From contig JALHNB010000066.1 of the NCBI GenBank assembly GCA_022843745.1, positions 1-35,389 of the forward strand: a stretch of 35,389 bases of DNA, given 5' to 3'. The notes beneath the pieces are model-generated. The model was not told where the DNA came from and made no database searches. It saw nothing but the letters and a program-made list of their open reading frames with translations. The position numbers and the translations under genes were made by a program. This DNA comes from Anaerolineae bacterium (GTDB taxonomy: Bacteria; Chloroflexota; Anaerolineae; Aggregatilineales; Phototrophicaceae). Shown piece after piece: positions 366-24,442 of this stretch; position 1 is the stretch's first letter; each line of letters begins with the position of its first letter.

Positions 366-466
366 TGCGCGATTGTAAATTGGAGAAAGGATTGGCGTTA
401 TCGCAGAGTGTTTATGGCGTATCACAATATAGTTCGCAATATTTTTGAATTAAGGAGACTCGAATA

Positions 467-2146
467 ATGAGTAGTAAAACATTGAAAACCCTATTTCTGA
501 TCCTCTTGCTCACGCTGGTTGTGGGTGCGGTTCAGGGGCAGGGCGTGGCGGTGAACCCCGCTGGCGAACTGCCGATTGTCAACGAGCCGGTCACGATCAG
601 GATTTTGATGGTGCAGACGACAGGCGTCGAAGACTATAACAATGGCAACAAATTTACAGAATGGGTCGAGGAACAGACCGGCATCAACATGGAATTCGAA
701 GTTGTGCCGTCGGCTGATGCCCGCACCAAACTGAACATCACCCTGGCAAGCGGTGAGCTGCCGGATGTGCTCGCGGGCTTCCCGATTGACGCGGGCTTGC
801 TGGCGCAGCAGGGCGCGGAGGGTCAATTCCTCCCGCTGAACGACTATATCGAAAATTCCGGCTTCTGGACGAAGCAGGCTTTCCAGGAAGAACGCCCCTA
901 TCTGCTGCCGCTGATTACGTCACCGGATGGCAATATCTACGGCCTGCCGGACATTAACGAATGCTTCCACTGCTTCACATCGCAGAAAATGTGGATTTAT
1001 CAGCCCTGGTTGGACGCGGTTGGCATGGAAATGCCCACGACCACCGAGGAATTCTACCAGGTTCTGAAGGCCTTCAAGGAACAAGACCCGAACGGCAACG
1101 GCATCGCCGACGAAGTAGCTTTCTCTGGTCAGATTCTCGAAGGCGGCTGGCACCAACCGATTGACGAGTTTATTATGCAGTCGTTCGTGTACTATGACCG
1201 CATTTCCGAACGCAATCAACAGCGTTTGCTGCTGGATGAGGATGGCAAAGTTCAGGTCGCTTATGCCCAACCCGGCTTTGCTGAAGGCCTGAAATATCTG
1301 AATCGTTTGTACAGCGAAGGCCTGATCGACCCGAATGCCTTCACCCAGGATAATTCGCAGATTCGCACACTGGCAAACAACCCCGATGTCAACATCCTCG
1401 GCGCGACGGGCGCGGGTTGGCCTGGTATGTTCGCCCAGGTTCAGTTTAAAGCTGATGGTGGACGACTCGAAGATTGGGTTTCCGTCCCTGTGCTTGAGGG
1501 GCCGAATGGCTTCCGTGAAACCGCCTATGTACCATTTGGTTTCGCTCCTGGCCGTTGGGTCGTGACCAGCGCGGCGGAAAACCCCGAAGCTGCCTTCCGT
1601 TTGGGCGACTTCCTCTACAGCCGCGATGCCACAATCCGCAACGTGTTTGGTGAAGAAGGTGTTGATTGGGCATGGGCCAGCGAAGGCATGACGGGAATCG
1701 ACGGCAAGCCAGCGCTTTATGACAACCTGCACCAGTGGACTGAGGAAATTCAGAATCAATCCTGGCAGCAGGCCGCAGTCACCTACCGTACATCGGAATT
1801 CCGCCTCGGCCAGAACGCAGAAGGTGAATACATCGAGACGATGCTGTACGCGGCGACTGCCGATAACATGATGCCCTATGTCCGCCCAATTGATCGCCTG
1901 ATCCCGCCCCTGACTCTTTCCGAAGATCAGGCTCGCGAATTGGCTGACCTGCGGCTGGCAATCGAAACCTATGTGGACGAAATGTTCGTCAATTTCGTCG
2001 TCGGTAACGCCGATGTCGATGCCGAGTGGGAAAATTATCTTGCCACGCTGGAATCGCTCGGACTGCCGCGCCTCCAGGAAATCTTCCAGGAAGCCTATGA
2101 CGCGCAGGCTGTCGCTGGCAGCGAAATGCAGCGCGAAGGCGGCTGA
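467..2146 (+). CDS. Extracellular solute-binding protein, LipO/family 1 type
   Basis: A 559-residue periplasmic or cell-surface binding protein for an ABC sugar importer. Residues 1-25 form a signal peptide: a short basic start, the core LFLILLLTLVVGAV, and a likely signal peptidase I site near QGQG. No lipobox cysteine follows, unlike many Gram-positive-type binding proteins. The mature part resembles LipO-like proteins that partner LplB/YtcP permeases, with a VTIRIL strand near the N-terminus, a DVLAGFP region and a DPNGNGIADEVAFS loop that is common in this group. AAGGAG at 452-457 lies nine bases before the ATG and supports the start. It follows the permease fragment by about 100 bp and precedes two fucosidases, so the ligand may be a fucosylated oligosaccharide; that is inference from position only. 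Confidence 0.9.
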   Translation: MSSKTLKTLFLILLLTLVVGAVQGQGVAVNPAGELPIVNEPVTIRILMVQTTGVEDYNNGNKFTEWVEEQTGINMEFEVVPSADARTKLNITLASGELPDVLAGFPIDAGLLAQQGAEGQFLPLNDYIENSGFWTKQAFQEERPYLLPLITSPDGNIYGLPDINECFHCFTSQKMWIYQPWLDAVGMEMPTTTEEFYQVLKAFKEQDPNGNGIADEVAFSGQILEGGWHQPIDEFIMQSFVYYDRISERNQQRLLLDEDGKVQVAYAQPGFAEGLKYLNRLYSEGLIDPNAFTQDNSQIRTLANNPDVNILGATGAGWPGMFAQVQFKADGGRLEDWVSVPVLEGPNGFRETAYVPFGFAPGRWVVTSAAENPEAAFRLGDFLYSRDATIRNVFGEEGVDWAWASEGMTGIDGKPALYDNLHQWTEEIQNQSWQQAAVTYRTSEFRLGQNAEGEYIETMLYAATADNMMPYVRPIDRLIPPLTLSEDQARELADLRLAIETYVDEMFVNFVVGNADVDAEWENYLATLESLGLPRLQEIFQEAYDAQAVAGSEMQREGG

Positions 2147-2209
2147 TCGGATTTTGCGTTCATTCTGTGATGGGTGGATGTGGATTTAGTCATTCGATCT
2201 GATAATGTT

Positions 2210-2237
2210 GTAGGGGCGCAATATATTGCGCCCCTAC
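2210..2237. repeat. Palindromic repeat, family A (perfect 28-bp palindrome)
   Basis: Each arm is GTAGGGGCGCAATA, giving a perfect inverted repeat with no loop. It belongs to the dispersed family with GTAGGGGC/GCCCCTAC ends seen at least nine times in this window, always between genes. It lies between the binding protein and the first fucosidase. There is no U-tract, so it is not a standard terminator, though the RNA hairpin could affect mRNA stability. Confidence 0.9.
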
Positions 2238-2286
2238 GGACGCTGCCCGATTGTTTCGCCAAACAGCATCATCCATCATAGCCATT

Positions 2287-2313
2287 GTGGGCGATCCGTC
2301 GGGTCGCCCCTAC
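2287..2313. repeat. Palindromic repeat, family A (imperfect unit)
   Basis: GTGGGCGA, then a short GC-rich middle, then TCGCCCCTAC, about 50 bp after the perfect palindrome. The right end keeps the family terminus GCCCCTAC while the left end is GTGGGC instead of GTAGGGGC. The two units may be one compound element. A reading frame runs through it into the fucosidase, but that extension is repeat DNA and not protein. Confidence 0.75.
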
Positions 2314-2409
2314 ACAAAACTTCCCGAATTTATTGGACAAACTTATCATTCTTCAGCACACTCTTATTTTGATGTTGCAAATTTATATTCTTTTATAGGA
2401 GTTACAACG

Positions 2410-3639
2410 ATGGCTAAACCCGTATCAGCTCAAGGGCTTGAGTGGTTTCAGGACGCTCGTTTTTCGATGTTCATCCACTGGGGATTGTATTCGATCCTCG
2501 CCAAGCAGGAATGGGTGATGCACACGGATCGCATTCCTGTGCCTGAGTACGAAAAACTCGTCCCTCAGTTTAACCCGGTCAAATATAACGCCGACGAGTG
2601 GGTGAGTATCGCCGCCGACGCGGGGCAAAAATTCATGGTCATCACCAGCCGCCACCACGATGGCTTTAGCATGTATGACACGGCTCTGAGCGACTACAAA
2701 GTGACGAATACGCCCTTCAAGCGCGACCCGATCCGCGAACTGGCCGACGCAGTTGCCCGCCGGAATGACGTAAAACTTGGCTTCTATAGTTCGCTGCTGG
2801 ACTGGCATCATCCGGCGTATCGTTTCCGCGAGGAAAGTGGCCTGGCGTGGTCGGATTATCTCGAATTCTTGCACGGGCAGGTGCGCGAACTTTGCACCAA
2901 TTACGGCGAAGTGGTCGAAATCTGGTTTGATGGCGACTGGCCGCATCACCCATTCGACGAAACGAATCAGTATTTCAAGGCAGGCGGCTCGTTCGAGTAC
3001 GACAAACTTTACGACATGATCCACACGTTACAGCCGGACTGTGTTATTCACAACAACCGTCACGATAAGCCGCTGCCGGGTGAGGATGTTCAGGGTTTTG
3101 AGCAAGATTTGCCGGGGATGAACACGGCGGGCTTTAACGAGACGAAGATTTACGGCCTGCCGATTGAAGTGTGCATGACGATTAACGGGCATTGGGGATA
3201 CAGCGCGGGCGACTATAACACCAAGTCGGTGCGCAATCTCGTCCATATGCTGGTGCGGAGTGCCAGTGTCGGCGGCAATTATCTGCTCAACGTCGGCCCG
3301 ACTCCCGAAGGCGAAATCGTCCCGCAGCACGCCGAACGCCTGCGCGGGGTAGGGGAGTGGCTGAAATCAAACGGCGAGTCGGTCTATGGCACACGCGCGG
3401 GGGCGATTGCGCCGAGTGCGGTATCGGTCAGCACGCGCAAGGGCGATACCCACTATGTGCATCTTTTGGATTATGTGAGCGATAGCGTGACGTTGAAAGG
3501 CGCTCCCGCCAGCATCACACAGGCGAAGCTGTTGAAAAATGGCGAGGCGGTGCAGATGGAACGCAGCGGCGACGATCTGATATTGACCGTGCCGGATACG
3601 CAGCGCGATCCGATTGATACGGTGGTCGTGTTGTCGTAA
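2410..3639 (+). CDS. Alpha-L-fucosidase, GH29 (paralog 1)
   Basis: A 409-residue glycoside hydrolase releasing alpha-linked L-fucose from glycans. GH29 marks are clear: RFSMFIHWG near residues 17-25, [12 protein letters not shown] at 79-90, [16 protein letters not shown] at 122-137 and EIWFDGDW at 170-177, whose D174 is the expected nucleophile. ANYLLNVGP-type sequence ([15 protein letters not shown]) closes the catalytic barrel, followed by a C-terminal beta domain. There is no signal peptide, so it should act in the cytoplasm on imported oligosaccharides. The open frame extends back to 2251, but AGGAG at 2397-2401 and the match of [14 protein letters not shown] to the start of the next gene fix the ATG at 2410. 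It lies downstream of ABC importer genes and is duplicated immediately downstream. Confidence 0.93.
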
Positions 3640-3650
3640 AGGGAATACAA

Positions 3651-3690
3651 CCTCACCCCCATCCCCTCTCCAACACATTGGAGAGGGGAG
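3651..3690. repeat. C-rich hairpin repeat, family B
   Basis: CCTCACCCCCATCCCCTCTCC, a short A/T-rich loop, then GGAGAGGGG. The arms at 3663-3671 and 3680-3688 pair over nine bases. Similar units occur near 19810, 28540 and 32925. It sits in the 98-bp spacer between the two fucosidase genes. There is no run of T after it, so termination is not implied. Confidence 0.8.
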
Positions 3691-3737
3691 CAAAAGACAA
3701 GGTTATCTTGGGGCTTGGTATTGAATAGGACAAGAAA

Positions 3738-4961
3738 ATGGCGAAACAGGTATCGGCGCAGGGGCTACAGTGGTTTCAGGATGTTCGGTTTGGCATGTTC
3801 ATTCATTGGGGGCCGTCGGCTATTCCGGCGCGGCATGACTGGATTATGGCTGCTGAGTCGATTCCCGTGCCGGAGTACGAAAAATTCGCTGCACAATTTA
3901 ACCCGACGAAATTCAGCGCTGACGAGTGGGTGAGTATTGCCGCCGATGCCGGGCAAAAGTACATGGTCTTTACCAGCCGCCACCACGATGGCTTTAGCAT
4001 GTACGACACAGCATTAAGCGATTACAAGATCACCAACTCACCATTTGGGCGCGATCCGGTGCGCGAACTGGCGGATGCAATTGCCCGACGCGGCGACATC
4101 AAGCTCGGATTTTATAGCTCGGTGCTTGATTGGCATCACCCAGCCTATCGTTTTCGTGACGAAAGTGGGTTAGCGTGGTCGGATTATCTTGAATTTTTGC
4201 ATGGGCAGGTGCGCGAACTCTGCACGAATTACGGCGAACTGGCCTGCCTGTGGTTCGATGGGGACTGGCCTCGCCACCAGCTTCCCGCAGAACACGCCTA
4301 TTTCAAGGCGGGTGGGTCATTCGAGTATGACAAACTTTATGACCTGATCCACACTTTGCAGCCGGGCGCGGTAGTGCTGAATAATCGCCATGATGAGCCG
4401 CTGTCGGGTGAAGATGTTCAGGGTTTTGAGCAGGATTTGCCGGGGATGAACACGGCGGGCTTTAATCCCTCTACTGTCTACACATTTCCGCTGGAAGTGT
4501 GCATGACGATTAACGATCACTGGTTCTACGTCGACGGCAGCCGCAATCACAAATCGGCGCGACAGCTTGTACAATATCTGGCGCGGAGTGCCAGCGCCGG
4601 GGCGAATTATTTGCTCAATGTCGGTCCAACCACCGAGGGTGAAATTCTGCCGCAGCACGCCGAGCGACTGCGCAGAGTCGGCAAATGGCTAAAAGTGAAT
4701 GGCGAGTCCATTTATGGGACGCGCGCTGGAACGATTGCGCCGACAGCGGTAACGGTCAGCACGCGCAAAGGGAATACCCATTACGTCCATATTCTCGACA
4801 ATGTAAGTGATTATGTGGTTTTGAATGATGTGCCTGCCCAGAGTGCGCGATTACTCTCCAATGGCCTGCCCGTCGAAATGCAGCGAAAAGAGGGCAAGCT
4901 CATTCTGATCGTGCCGGAATCTCAGCGCGACTCGATGGATACTGTCGTCGTGTTGTCGTAA
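3738..4961 (+). CDS. Alpha-L-fucosidase, GH29 (paralog 2)
   Basis: A 407-residue GH29 enzyme, closely similar to the preceding gene along its whole length (same MAK-VSAQGL-WFQD start, same [26 protein letters not shown] and LCTNYGEL blocks). The candidate nucleophile is D174 in LWFDGDW. It has no signal peptide, so it is probably cytoplasmic. Differences cluster around the active-site rim: [10 protein letters not shown] becomes [10 protein letters not shown] at residues 26-35, and [20 protein letters not shown] becomes [20 protein letters not shown]. This suggests a change in linkage or aglycone preference after duplication. AGGA at 3727-3730 lies eight bases before the ATG. It probably shares an mRNA with the upstream genes and ends at the hairpin at 4974-5005. 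Confidence 0.93.
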
Positions 4962-4973
4962 TACGTGATAAAA

Positions 4974-5005
4974 ATGCTGCTGGCGAATTCGTTCGTCAGC
5001 AGCAT
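4974..5005. terminator. Bidirectional intrinsic terminator between convergent genes
   Basis: The 14-base arm ATGCTGCTGGCGAA pairs with TTCGTCAGCAGCAT across the tetraloop TTCG, with one G-T pair. On the minus strand the stem is followed by TTTTATC, a reasonable U-tract for ending the small membrane-protein gene. On the plus strand four A residues precede the stem and the tail is CCAAAAATCTT, so termination of the fucosidase transcript is less certain. Confidence 0.75.
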
Positions 5006-5014
5006 CCAAAAATC

Positions 5015-5224
5015 TTATCGAGGCCAGTTGCGATCCACATAGACGCGGATCGGTGTGTTGCCACGGTTGCGCTGGATCGTCCAGCCCGCCAGCAGATAGC
5101 CACCGCCGATGAACATGAAGGCCGAGGCGACCATGAGCGCCAGAAGCTCCGGGAAAACGGCGATCATAAAGCCGAAAAACAGCAGCGCCGCGCCGGGAAT
5201 CCACCACATTGTTGAAGTTCTCAT
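5015..5224 (-). CDS. Small two-helix membrane protein (DUF3096-like)
   Basis: A 69-residue protein starting MRTSTMWWIPGAALLFFGF. Two hydrophobic helices, at about residues 7-23 and 27-46, flank a short turn holding FPELLA, and a basic tail with RNRGN and DRNWPR follows. The pattern of a glycine/hydrophobic helix, FPELL, then a second helix with an IGGGYL motif recalls the DUF3096 group of tiny bacterial membrane proteins, whose role is unknown. The open frame starts eight codons earlier at 5248, but GGGAG sits upstream of the internal ATG and nothing precedes the first, so I prefer 5224. It runs against the fucosidase genes and ends at the shared terminator. It is divergent from the mannonate-dehydratase-like gene. 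Confidence 0.65.
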   Translation of the reverse strand: MRTSTMWWIPGAALLFFGFMIAVFPELLALMVASAFMFIGGGYLLAGWTIQRNRGNTPIRVYVDRNWPR

Positions 5225-21926: not shown

Positions 21927-23018
21927 CTAAGCGGCGCGACCTGCCTGAAGCAATGTGACATCTACTATTAGCTGCTGATTGGGAACGCTCTCTATATCGA
22001 GCGTGCCACCATACAATTCTGCCAGCCGGCGGCTGATCGTCAAGCCGAGCCCAACGCCCTTTTGCTCATACTGTTCGCGCTCGAACTGCATATAAGCGCC
22101 GATCCGCGCGATCTGGTCGGGTGTCATACCACGACCTTCGTTCGTGACGCGAATATGATAGTCATTTTCATCTGCCCATGCGCTGATCTCAACCAGTGTT
22201 CCTGGCGGCGAAAATTTGAAAGCGTTATGGACAATCTCATCAATGATGCGGCTCAGATGCTGGTCGGATATCTGAAGGCTGGCATCGCTCATGCTCAGAA
22301 CCACGTCGCGCTCGCGGTTAAAATGCTGCGCTATTTCAAACGCGACTGCATTGATGATCGCGCAGGCGCTTTCGACACGATTGTTTTTCAACGCTTCTGA
22401 TGAGACGGGAGAAGCCGCGATGATCTCCGTCTCGACATAGACCCAGAATTTTTCGGTCATCTGGTTGAGGCGGTTGGCTGAACTCAGAATGGTTTGGATC
22501 ATTTCGCCACGTTCAGGGTCGATGTCGTCGGCAAGCAGGCTGGACATGCCGATGACGATCCCCAGCGGCGTGCGGAATTCGTGGGGTAGGGCGTGGGTGA
22601 TATTGCGCCGCAGTTCGTTGAGTTTTTCTTCGGCCCCTCGTGCGACTCGTGCCTGTTTTTCCAGCCGGATATGAACAGCCGAGATCAGATCGTTGATGTA
22701 AAAGGGCTTGATAAGATAATCATCCGCGCCCAACCCCATACCCCAGCGAACATTCTTCATTTCGCCGAGAGCCGTGAGGAAAATGAACGGGATTGACTCG
22801 GTGATAGGATTCTCGCGCAGCGCGGTCAGTACAGCGAAACCATCCATATCAGGCATATTGACATCCGAGACGATCAGATCGGGCAGATGTTCGAGCGCCA
22901 GTTGGATGCCCGAAGTGCCGTCCTCTGCGGAAATAACCCGGTAATCCTGTGATTTCAGAATATCGACAATGAGTCTGCGATTATCGGACTCATCTTCGAT
23001 GACCAATATTTGCTGCAT
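21927..23018 (-). CDS. Receiver-histidine kinase (REC-HisKA-HATPase)
   Basis: A 363-residue soluble hybrid with the receiver at the N-terminus. REC: E8/D9, D52 in LIVSDVNMP, T82, K104 in DYLIKPF. HisKA: ITHALPHEFRTPLGIVIGMS with H146. HATPase: NAFKFSPPGT, VTNEGRGM, GVGLGLTISRRLAELYGG. All acceptor and catalytic residues are present, so it should take phosphate onto the receiver and may autophosphorylate under its control, as in cyanobacterial-type REC-kinases. No transmembrane segment. It follows the cyclase-like-REC gene by 11 bases and probably shares its transcript; the tam gene lies downstream with a 139-bp gap. The ribosome binding site before the ATG is weak. Confidence 0.92.
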   Translation of the reverse strand: MQQILVIEDESDNRRLIVDILKSQDYRVISAEDGTSGIQLALEHLPDLIVSDVNMPDMDGFAVLTALRENPITESIPFIFLTALGEMKNVRWGMGLGADDYLIKPFYINDLISAVHIRLEKQARVARGAEEKLNELRRNITHALPHEFRTPLGIVIGMSSLLADDIDPERGEMIQTILSSANRLNQMTEKFWVYVETEIIAASPVSSEALKNNRVESACAIINAVAFEIAQHFNRERDVVLSMSDASLQISDQHLSRIIDEIVHNAFKFSPPGTLVEISAWADENDYHIRVTNEGRGMTPDQIARIGAYMQFEREQYEQKGVGLGLTISRRLAELYGGTLDIESVPNQQLIVDVTLLQAGRAA

Positions 23019-23029
23019 GGTGTTTCTTT

Positions 23030-24025
23030 CTATACCCTGACTTTGACAAAGCGGTGCGCAAACTGTACCAGATCGGTAATGCTGACGGGTTTCAGTAGAA
23101 ATACATCGGCCATATCCGCTTCCGCGCTGCGTCCGGCCTGATAATTGGCAGTAATAACGATAACATGAAGTGGTTTTTGACTCTGGCGGACATGCCGGAT
23201 AATTTCCAGACCGGATGGCCCCGGCATATTGATGTCCAGCAGTAGCAAATCGGGCAGGGTGCGATTCAAATATTCCATCGCTTCATGACCATTTTGGGCA
23301 ACATTGACGCTAAAACCAGCACGGCGCAGCACGGTTGCAAAAATATCCCGTAGGTCGGCATGATCCTCCGCGATGAGTATCTGATACTCGCCCGCTGCCG
23401 GATATAGCATTTCCGGCACGCTGGGTTGCGCGGTTAACTGATAGGCTACTGTACCATCCTGAACGGCTGAGACCCACAATTTCGAGGCTTGAAACATTTT
23501 ACCCTCTAACAGGCTGATGTCCTGAAATATGGTTTCTGAGACCAGGATATTTCCACTCTGTTCCGACAGGCAGTGCGCGACATCGACCACGCTCCCCTTG
23601 ATAACCTCAAGCTTGTATTGACAGTTCTCCTCGTGTTCGTGCGTGACGATACCATGATGGATGCCGATGCCCATCTCCACCTCAAAACCACACTCCGCCC
23701 AGCCCGGCTTCATCAAGGCGAAAACCTGCTGCATTTTGAAGGCTGCTTCAACCGCCTTGCTGCTTTGCCTGGAAGCCTCGTCCGTATAGTCCTTGCTGGA
23801 AGTATCATCTGAAAGTTCATAGCTTGTCAACAAGTGATGGCCCGCAAGATCGATCACCGTACCCCCGGATGCGTCGATCACCGGCAGCATGGTTTGAAAA
23901 AATGCGTCGAGCAGGTCAATGGCGCGTTCAGAAACCGCCTCGTTGAGGTTGTGATATGAAAATTTGTTGAGGCTTGCGACCAGGACGGTCACGGGCCGAT
24001 GTTCACTTGAAATTTTGGATATCAT
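23030..24025 (-). CDS. Degenerate class III cyclase-like domain fused to a receiver
   Basis: A protein of 331 residues. The N-terminal 200 residues follow the class III nucleotidyl cyclase pattern (HRPVTVLVASLNKFSYHNLN, ASGGTVIDLAGHHLLTSYE, FEVEMGIGIHHGIVTHEHEE, GSVVDVAHCLSEQSGNILVS). Both metal-binding Asp positions are changed (S18 for the first, H63 for the second), and the usual N and R of the transition-state set read D148 and C152. It is therefore probably not a cyclase but a regulatory or ligand-binding fold. The C-terminal receiver (about 213-331) has D221, D264 in LLLLDINMP and K near LLKPVS and is intact. The ATG at 24025 (AAGGA upstream) is preferred over 24046. It stands between the orphan receiver and the REC-kinase, which may be its phosphate source. 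Confidence 0.82.
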   Translation of the reverse strand: MISKISSEHRPVTVLVASLNKFSYHNLNEAVSERAIDLLDAFFQTMLPVIDASGGTVIDLAGHHLLTSYELSDDTSSKDYTDEASRQSSKAVEAAFKMQQVFALMKPGWAECGFEVEMGIGIHHGIVTHEHEENCQYKLEVIKGSVVDVAHCLSEQSGNILVSETIFQDISLLEGKMFQASKLWVSAVQDGTVAYQLTAQPSVPEMLYPAAGEYQILIAEDHADLRDIFATVLRRAGFSVNVAQNGHEAMEYLNRTLPDLLLLDINMPGPSGLEIIRHVRQSQKPLHVIVITANYQAGRSAEADMADVFLLKPVSITDLVQFAHRFVKVRV

Positions 24026-24070
24026 AAATATTCTTTTCCTTAACATTACCCTGCATTGGATGCTAGAAAA

Positions 24071-24442
24071 CTAGCCCACATTGGATGCCAGAATCGCCTT
24101 TGCGATTTCATCGATGGAGGCGCTCTTGAGCAGATAGCCGATTGCCCCCGCCTGCCGCATCGCCTGAAAGGTCTCCGGGTCTCTATCGCTGGTTAAGGCG
24201 ATCACCTGGATACCGGGATACGATTGGCGAATGAGTCGTGTGGCGACAACGCCGTCCATCACGGGCATTTTTATATCCATCAGCACCACATCGGGGTGTA
24301 TCTGACCGCAGAGATTAATGGCTTCAATACCATTACCTGCCGCGCCAACAAATTGAAGCTCATCAAAGATGCGCAGGGAAAATCTCAGACCCTGTCGAAC
24401 AGCATCGTGATCGTCAACAATCATTACACGAATAGGATTCAT
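24071..24442 (-). CDS. Single-domain response regulator (orphan receiver)
   Basis: A 123-residue stand-alone receiver of the NarL-type subgroup. D10/D11, the phosphoacceptor D56 in VVLMDIKMPVMDG, T84 in IALTSDRD and K106 in GYLLKSASIDEI are all present. It ends right after the last helix (EIAKAILASNVG), so no output domain is present. Single-domain regulators often shuttle phosphate in a relay or bind a partner. The small gap (46 bp) and direction link it with the cyclase-like-REC and REC-kinase genes downstream. It begins the signalling run, and an upstream gap of 276 bp holds its probable promoter. Confidence 0.9.
   Translation of the reverse strand: MNPIRVMIVDDHDAVRQGLRFSLRIFDELQFVGAAGNGIEAINLCGQIHPDVVLMDIKMPVMDGVVATRLIRQSYPGIQVIALTSDRDPETFQAMRQAGAIGYLLKSASIDEIAKAILASNVG

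Follow-up and report, generated by a model that had tools for sequence, protein, structure and literature searches.

The kinases and the c-di-GMP enzymes have well-known pseudoenzymes among them, and our impression is that bacterial class III pseudo-cyclases have received less study. CyaC, CyaB and Cya2 are catalytic class III enzymes with a metal-binding Asp pair and a transition-state Asn and Arg. Two kinds of related protein are already known, namely inactive class III cyclases, such as Rv1359, and receiver proteins with a degenerate GGDEF domain, such as PopA. In the part of the source drawn on here, the mycobacterial class III cyclase homologues Rv1359 and MSMEG_0545 are thought to be inactive; both have lost the first metal Asp, Rv1359 also lacks an Arg, and the authors hypothesised a role as transcriptional regulators (PMC3961136). 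PopA of Caulobacter, as portrayed in the excerpt used here, has the build REC-REC-degenerate GGDEF, acts in CtrA degradation and keeps its c-di-GMP binding I-site (PMC10333796).

We analyzed the window, i.e., the whole stretch of 35,389 nucleotides from an Anaerolineae bacterium, which encodes a class III cyclase-like domain joined to a receiver. On balance, this protein is probably a response regulator whose output is not catalytic, namely a phosphorylation-switched adaptor.

Gene layout, fold and catalytic positions

Three tightly packed genes lie on the minus strand. The first encodes a stand-alone NarL-type receiver of 123 aa without any other Pfam domain (24071..24442). The second is the gene of the pseudo-cyclase-REC protein (23030..24025), which gives 331 aa from the ATG at 24025 or 338 aa from an in-frame alternative ATG at 24046. 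The third, 11 nt downstream, encodes a REC-HisKA-HATPase kinase of 363 aa (21927..23018). This gene order agrees with the preliminary description, which had placed the protein between an orphan receiver and a REC-kinase.

The C-terminal receiver (residues 215-328, 23042..23383, minus strand) was delimited from Pfam, the translation and the tree. As had been claimed, it is intact: Response_reg scores 83.8 bits, and the acid pair E220/D221, the phospho-acceptor D264, T292 and K312 are all present, which by sequence makes the protein a response regulator. The cyclase-like domain (residues 12-200, 23426..23992, minus strand) was assigned from Pfam PF00211, AlphaFold2 models, Foldseek and VIA-align. 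Profile annotation largely misses this part. Guanylate_cyc (PF00211) scores 19.0 bits on the window protein, under the cut-off of 21.9; only one of the five members scanned reaches the cut-off (L012, 22.0 bits), the other four being below it or unmatched. The best 25 NCBIfam families include no named cyclase, either for the window protein or for four of its orthologs, and no GGDEF family is among the five Pfam matches of the window scan.

AlphaFold2, run on six family sequences of which one is shortened by a contig end, gave a mean pLDDT of 78.6 for the whole protein, and the domain alone reached a pLDDT of 78.7 and a pTM of 0.81. The best Foldseek matches of the predicted model were CyaC, Cya2 and CyaB. 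Superposition with VIA-align on CyaB (3r5g) gave Z 22.5 and an rmsd of 2.7 over 188 residues, and Z was about 20-22 for CyaC, 21 for Cya2 and about 19-21 for mammalian cyclases. The predicted structure of the N-terminal part is thus a class III cyclase fold, as the preliminary description had it. The beta1-alpha1 segment is full-length in the window domain and shortened in the other five family members, so the surface may differ among the six.

Aligned with catalytic relatives of the same order, the window domain has Ser18 (23972..23974) and His63 (23837..23839) in place of the two metal Asp residues, Asp148 (23582..23584) in place of the transition-state Asn and Cys152 (23570..23572) in place of the Arg, all on the minus strand. 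The alignment confirmed the loss of all four catalytic positions, the same four replacements that had been noted at the outset. The domain has neither the metal Asp pair nor the transition-state Asn/Arg, and it stays below the PF00211 gathering score. A C2-like half enzyme was considered and dropped, since neither half of the active site remains in the manner of a C1/C2-type half cyclase. Strand beta-1 (residues 12-24) is without any acidic residue, and in the beta2-beta3 hairpin just one acid, Asp59, comes close to the metal position; it precedes that position by four residues, and the catalytic proteins L042 and L061 also have Asp at its place. For these reasons no acidic stand-in is visible in the sequence, and the case of metal sites filled by other acids, which the preliminary description had named as counting against it, did not appear at the level of sequence.

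Loss on this scale is exceptional among the domains compared. We used as a control 74 other cyclase domains (what remained of 108 rows without 24 duplicates, 4 fragments and the 6 rows of the family), a non-random set drawn from the same genome or class by resemblance to the pseudo-cyclase family or to PF00211: 61 have all four residues, five have three, seven have two, one has one and none has zero. In an alignment with 72 non-family domains (non-family rows below 150 residues left out), 20 columns hold a single residue in at least 85% of the domains. The window domain lost 10 of these, each of the other five members lost 11 or 12, and each non-family domain lost 0 to 8.

None of the five orthologs keeps more than one of the four catalytic residues. 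Given in the order window, L062, L069, L070, L067 and L012, the residues are S, Q, R, R, S, R at the first metal position (for the five orthologs read from the alignment with the 72 non-family rows, another alignment having a gap there), H, S, Q, E, D, G at the second, D, G, D, D, H, S at the Asn position and C, T, F, Y, E, R at the Arg position. No catalytic position has an identical residue across all six members. The loop ahead of the Asn/Arg motif is changed or shorter in the family, and G54, G121, G125 and G144, which are common to catalytic domains too, are invariant in all six.

Several other unusual cyclases were seen during the survey. At L223 (G000:C5 139500-146500), two adjacent cyclase genes on the plus strand lie in overlapping stop-to-stop frames (1547-3379 and 3298-5154); one is without the second metal Asp and keeps Asn/Arg, and the other has both Asp residues and is without Asn/Arg. 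Such a complementary pair is present in all four genomes checked (G000, G054, G038 and G105; L223, L224, L225 and L226), which were picked because the first half had already been seen there. From its residues, the pair likely encodes a two-gene heterodimeric class III cyclase. Two complementary domains are found within one protein at L044 (G051:C119), L058 (G112:C201) and L088 (G151:C1), where the first domain keeps D,D and the second keeps Asn and Arg; animal C1/C2 cyclases have a layout of this kind. L074 (G047:C44, ORF 412-3369) has a protein kinase-like N-terminus, a cyclase-like middle and a further large part. In its middle, other residues replace the second metal Asp as well as the Asn and the first metal position is unaligned; L074 is possibly another pseudo-cyclase of a different build.

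The ortholog family and its neighbourhood

The family comprises six members, the window and five orthologs, among 154 genomes of the order, all within the same bacterial family. Five members fall in genus code g13 (17 genomes listed) and one in the window's own genus. The preliminary description had proposed looking for orthologs with the same replaced residues; five orthologs turned up, their replacements differing from one to another. Since the five orthologs occur in the same bacterial family, this is not a single decayed gene. A pseudogene was considered and dropped, as no internal stop is present in the six genomes. The public records of the five named copies are four Anaerolineae or Chloroflexi MAGs and one Bacteroidetes. 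The latter is the G106 contig (L104), labelled 'Bacteroidetes bacterium'; its neighbourhood is like that of G104 and the grouping places this genome in the family of the window, and the contig is probably mislabelled.

A two-row profile (window and L012) searched against the 154 genomes yielded four further candidates that share this build. With this profile, L061 and L042, both catalytic, score 81.2 and 78.6 bits, and the other four members 59.6, 45.8, 38.9 and 37.8, so it is the tree, the order of the domains and the neighbours that define membership, and not the score. A six-member profile, partly matching itself, gave 225.8-283 bits for those six in the same genomes; the next matches were catalytic REC-cyclases at 120.1 and 99.1 bits. 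With the window protein as query, no relatives of the cyclase part were found in genome contigs or viral contigs. The family alignment found no relatives in viral contigs; in genome contigs the five orthologs were within the best 80 of 111 relatives and the other 75 matched mainly the receiver, in a search whose sole pattern lay in the receiver and which would miss members without that pattern. No further member scored above the best non-member, catalytic L061 (99.1 bits), in a class sample of 396 genomes with up to 8 candidates scored per genome. In a phylum sample of 400 genomes, with 5 candidates scored per listed genome, the window's own genome alone appeared at E 1e-30.

In a tree of 80 cyclase domains (rows below 110 residues left out), the six members form one side of a branch with SH-aLRT 88. 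Together with L042 and L061, which are catalytic, they make up an 8-row set (97). End branches are 1.09-2.88 changes per column in four of the six, and given these long branches the unity of the six is likely, not certain. Because they group together beside catalytic REC-cyclases, a single old loss of catalysis followed by fast divergence is the likeliest history.

We compared nonsynonymous and synonymous change in the only close pair, G104/G106. The cyclase part has changed mainly at silent sites, with pN 0.124 vs pS 0.750 over 160 codons; the fused receiver gives 0.037 vs 0.682 over 76 codons, and the upstream receiver gene 0.120 vs 0.585 over 128 codons. For the cyclase part dS was not computable, and no more than 215 of 500 bootstraps yielded a ratio. 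With pS saturated and the G106 gene truncated at the edge of its contig, only the direction of these values is safe; in that direction the dead domain is under constraint, looser than its own receiver and about like the upstream receiver gene.

A NarL-type stand-alone receiver lies directly upstream in all six loci. The REC-kinase follows directly downstream in three (window, G059 and G105), is not adjacent in G103 and G104, and in G106 the contig ends before that place; the window kinase is 44% identical to that of G059 and 41% to that of G105. Among seven aligned kinase orthologs, the H-box is intact in all, and in three, the window's included, Asn stands at the position of the first G1-box Asp in the ATP lid. 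In the receiver tree with a midpoint root, the fused receivers belong to a 27-row set (support 91) of 6 family, 18 stand-alone and 3 REC-REC receivers. They need three changes there, partly because the shortened G106 copy was not labelled as a family member. A REC-kinase of this type is directly downstream of 4 of the 21 non-family receivers (L017, L019, L031 and L094), which means that the receiver-plus-kinase unit is wider than the cyclase fusion. In G005 a REC-REC protein occupies the place of the pseudo-cyclase-REC protein, so what varies is the N-terminal part, with receiver and kinase retained. In G059, the catalytic REC-cyclase L042 lies in a NarL-REC / REC / REC-cyclase cluster, behind a NarL-type receiver, which suggests the origin of the cyclase-like domain. 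The NarL-type receivers of the six loci are not one group in their tree (two changes), and the tree leaves unsettled whether the L042 operon is their sister.

Possible roles of the cyclase-like domain

According to the favoured reading, a class III cyclase domain, kin to the REC-cyclases of the same order, would have been fused ahead of the receiver and have lost catalysis. The receiver would be phosphorylated within the local set, through the stand-alone receiver, the REC-kinase or another kinase. Phosphorylation would alter a contact surface on the cyclase-shaped domain, which would then bind or release a partner protein; the co-encoded NarL-type receiver and the REC-kinase are candidate partners. 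Catalytic positions that vary beside four invariant glycines are what is expected of a domain whose shape matters and whose pocket does not, and this pattern favours a phospho-switched protein-contact module. Retention of the protein in a few related bacteria suggests that the former enzyme fold has become a contact surface that can be switched. Counted for the adaptor are the predicted fold, the residue loss against the control, the six-member family and its tree, the mostly silent change, the NarL-type receiver in all six loci and the shared receiver-kinase unit. Counted against it are the score overlap with L061 and L042, the long branches, the five members of one genus code, the possibly unshared surface, the REC-kinase absent beside the genes of G103 and G104, the contig end in G106, the three changes on the receiver tree, and the saturated pS. 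A more specific form is offered tentatively: the dead domain might be a lineage-specific output that receiver phosphorylation exposes or hides, its contact being, for example, the capping of a catalytic REC-cyclase or of the NarL-type receiver. In that case a cAMP-type enzyme would have become an adaptor that can be switched.

The dead domain could instead pair with a catalytic class III cyclase and poison or tune it, gated by phosphorylation. Class III cyclase domains act as dimers, the nearest catalytic relatives are REC-cyclases, one of them in the G059 cluster, and seven cyclase matches over the Pfam cut-off exist in the window's genome; none of these seven, however, is in the set with L042 and L061. 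Moreover, the half domains surveyed keep one half of the composite site and the window domain keeps neither; having no metal Asp and no Asn/Arg, it cannot complement an active site, and the altered loop ahead of the Asn/Arg motif speaks in the same direction. We regard this pairing as unlikely. Fast evolution, seen in the long end branches, and the existence of the receiver without a cyclase-like part in other lineages would suit a relic, i.e., decaying baggage beside a receiver that alone matters, but open frames in all six members, a predicted class III fold, mostly silent change in the close pair and retention in two genus codes make this rather improbable.

The preliminary description had read the domain as a repurposed fold, either a scaffold or a nucleotide sensor. 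The scaffold fits, but the sensor is unsupported, as the catalytic positions differ between orthologs. Degenerate GGDEF domains did become ligand receptors, according to the portion of the source considered here (PMC10333796), which would favour a sensor of a nucleotide or another small ligand. Varied catalytic positions and an altered loop mean that a conserved ligand pocket at the old site is not expected, and we hold a sensor in the old cleft to be quite improbable; a ligand site elsewhere could still exist. That the domain is still a cyclase with an unusual mechanism is most improbable: the fold is kept and nothing else speaks for it, against none of the four catalytic residues in the window and the loss of three or more of them in every ortholog. 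Set beside these rivals, the phosphorylation-switched adaptor is the best reading.

Comparison with described systems

In titles and abstract openings we found no class III pseudo-cyclase response regulator, in a search too limited to show absence, and the combination of a class III domain, loss of all four residues and a receiver C-terminal to the domain did not turn up in the literature searched. Because the small ortholog family, its live relatives and the adjacent operon genes can each be identified, this case allows the path from enzyme to presumed adaptor to be traced.

CyaC, CyaB and Cya2 (1wc1, 3r5g and 2w01) share the fold with the window domain over about 180-188 residues, at Z about 20-22.5. 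In a PDB sequence search, CyaB and Cya2 have the metal Asp pair and Asn/Arg, whereas the window domain has none of the four; three of the five rows in the search profile are catalytic, so the search says little about the window's domain itself. Compared with the catalytic relatives L042 and L061, in which the receiver comes before the cyclase, the window protein has its receiver after the cyclase-like part. In the same order, the stand-alone receivers beside REC-kinases (L017, L019 and L031) and the REC-REC protein L014 have a homologous receiver and kinase and are without the cyclase-like part. For Rv1359 and MSMEG_0545, the part of the source drawn on describes a partial loss and mentions no receiver, whereas the window protein has lost all four residues and carries a receiver. 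PopA, as far as the excerpt describes it, resembles the window protein in combining a cyclase-type domain without catalytic residues with a receiver, a likeness of build only: its domain is a GGDEF with an I-site, while that of the window is class III, with no conserved ligand site seen.
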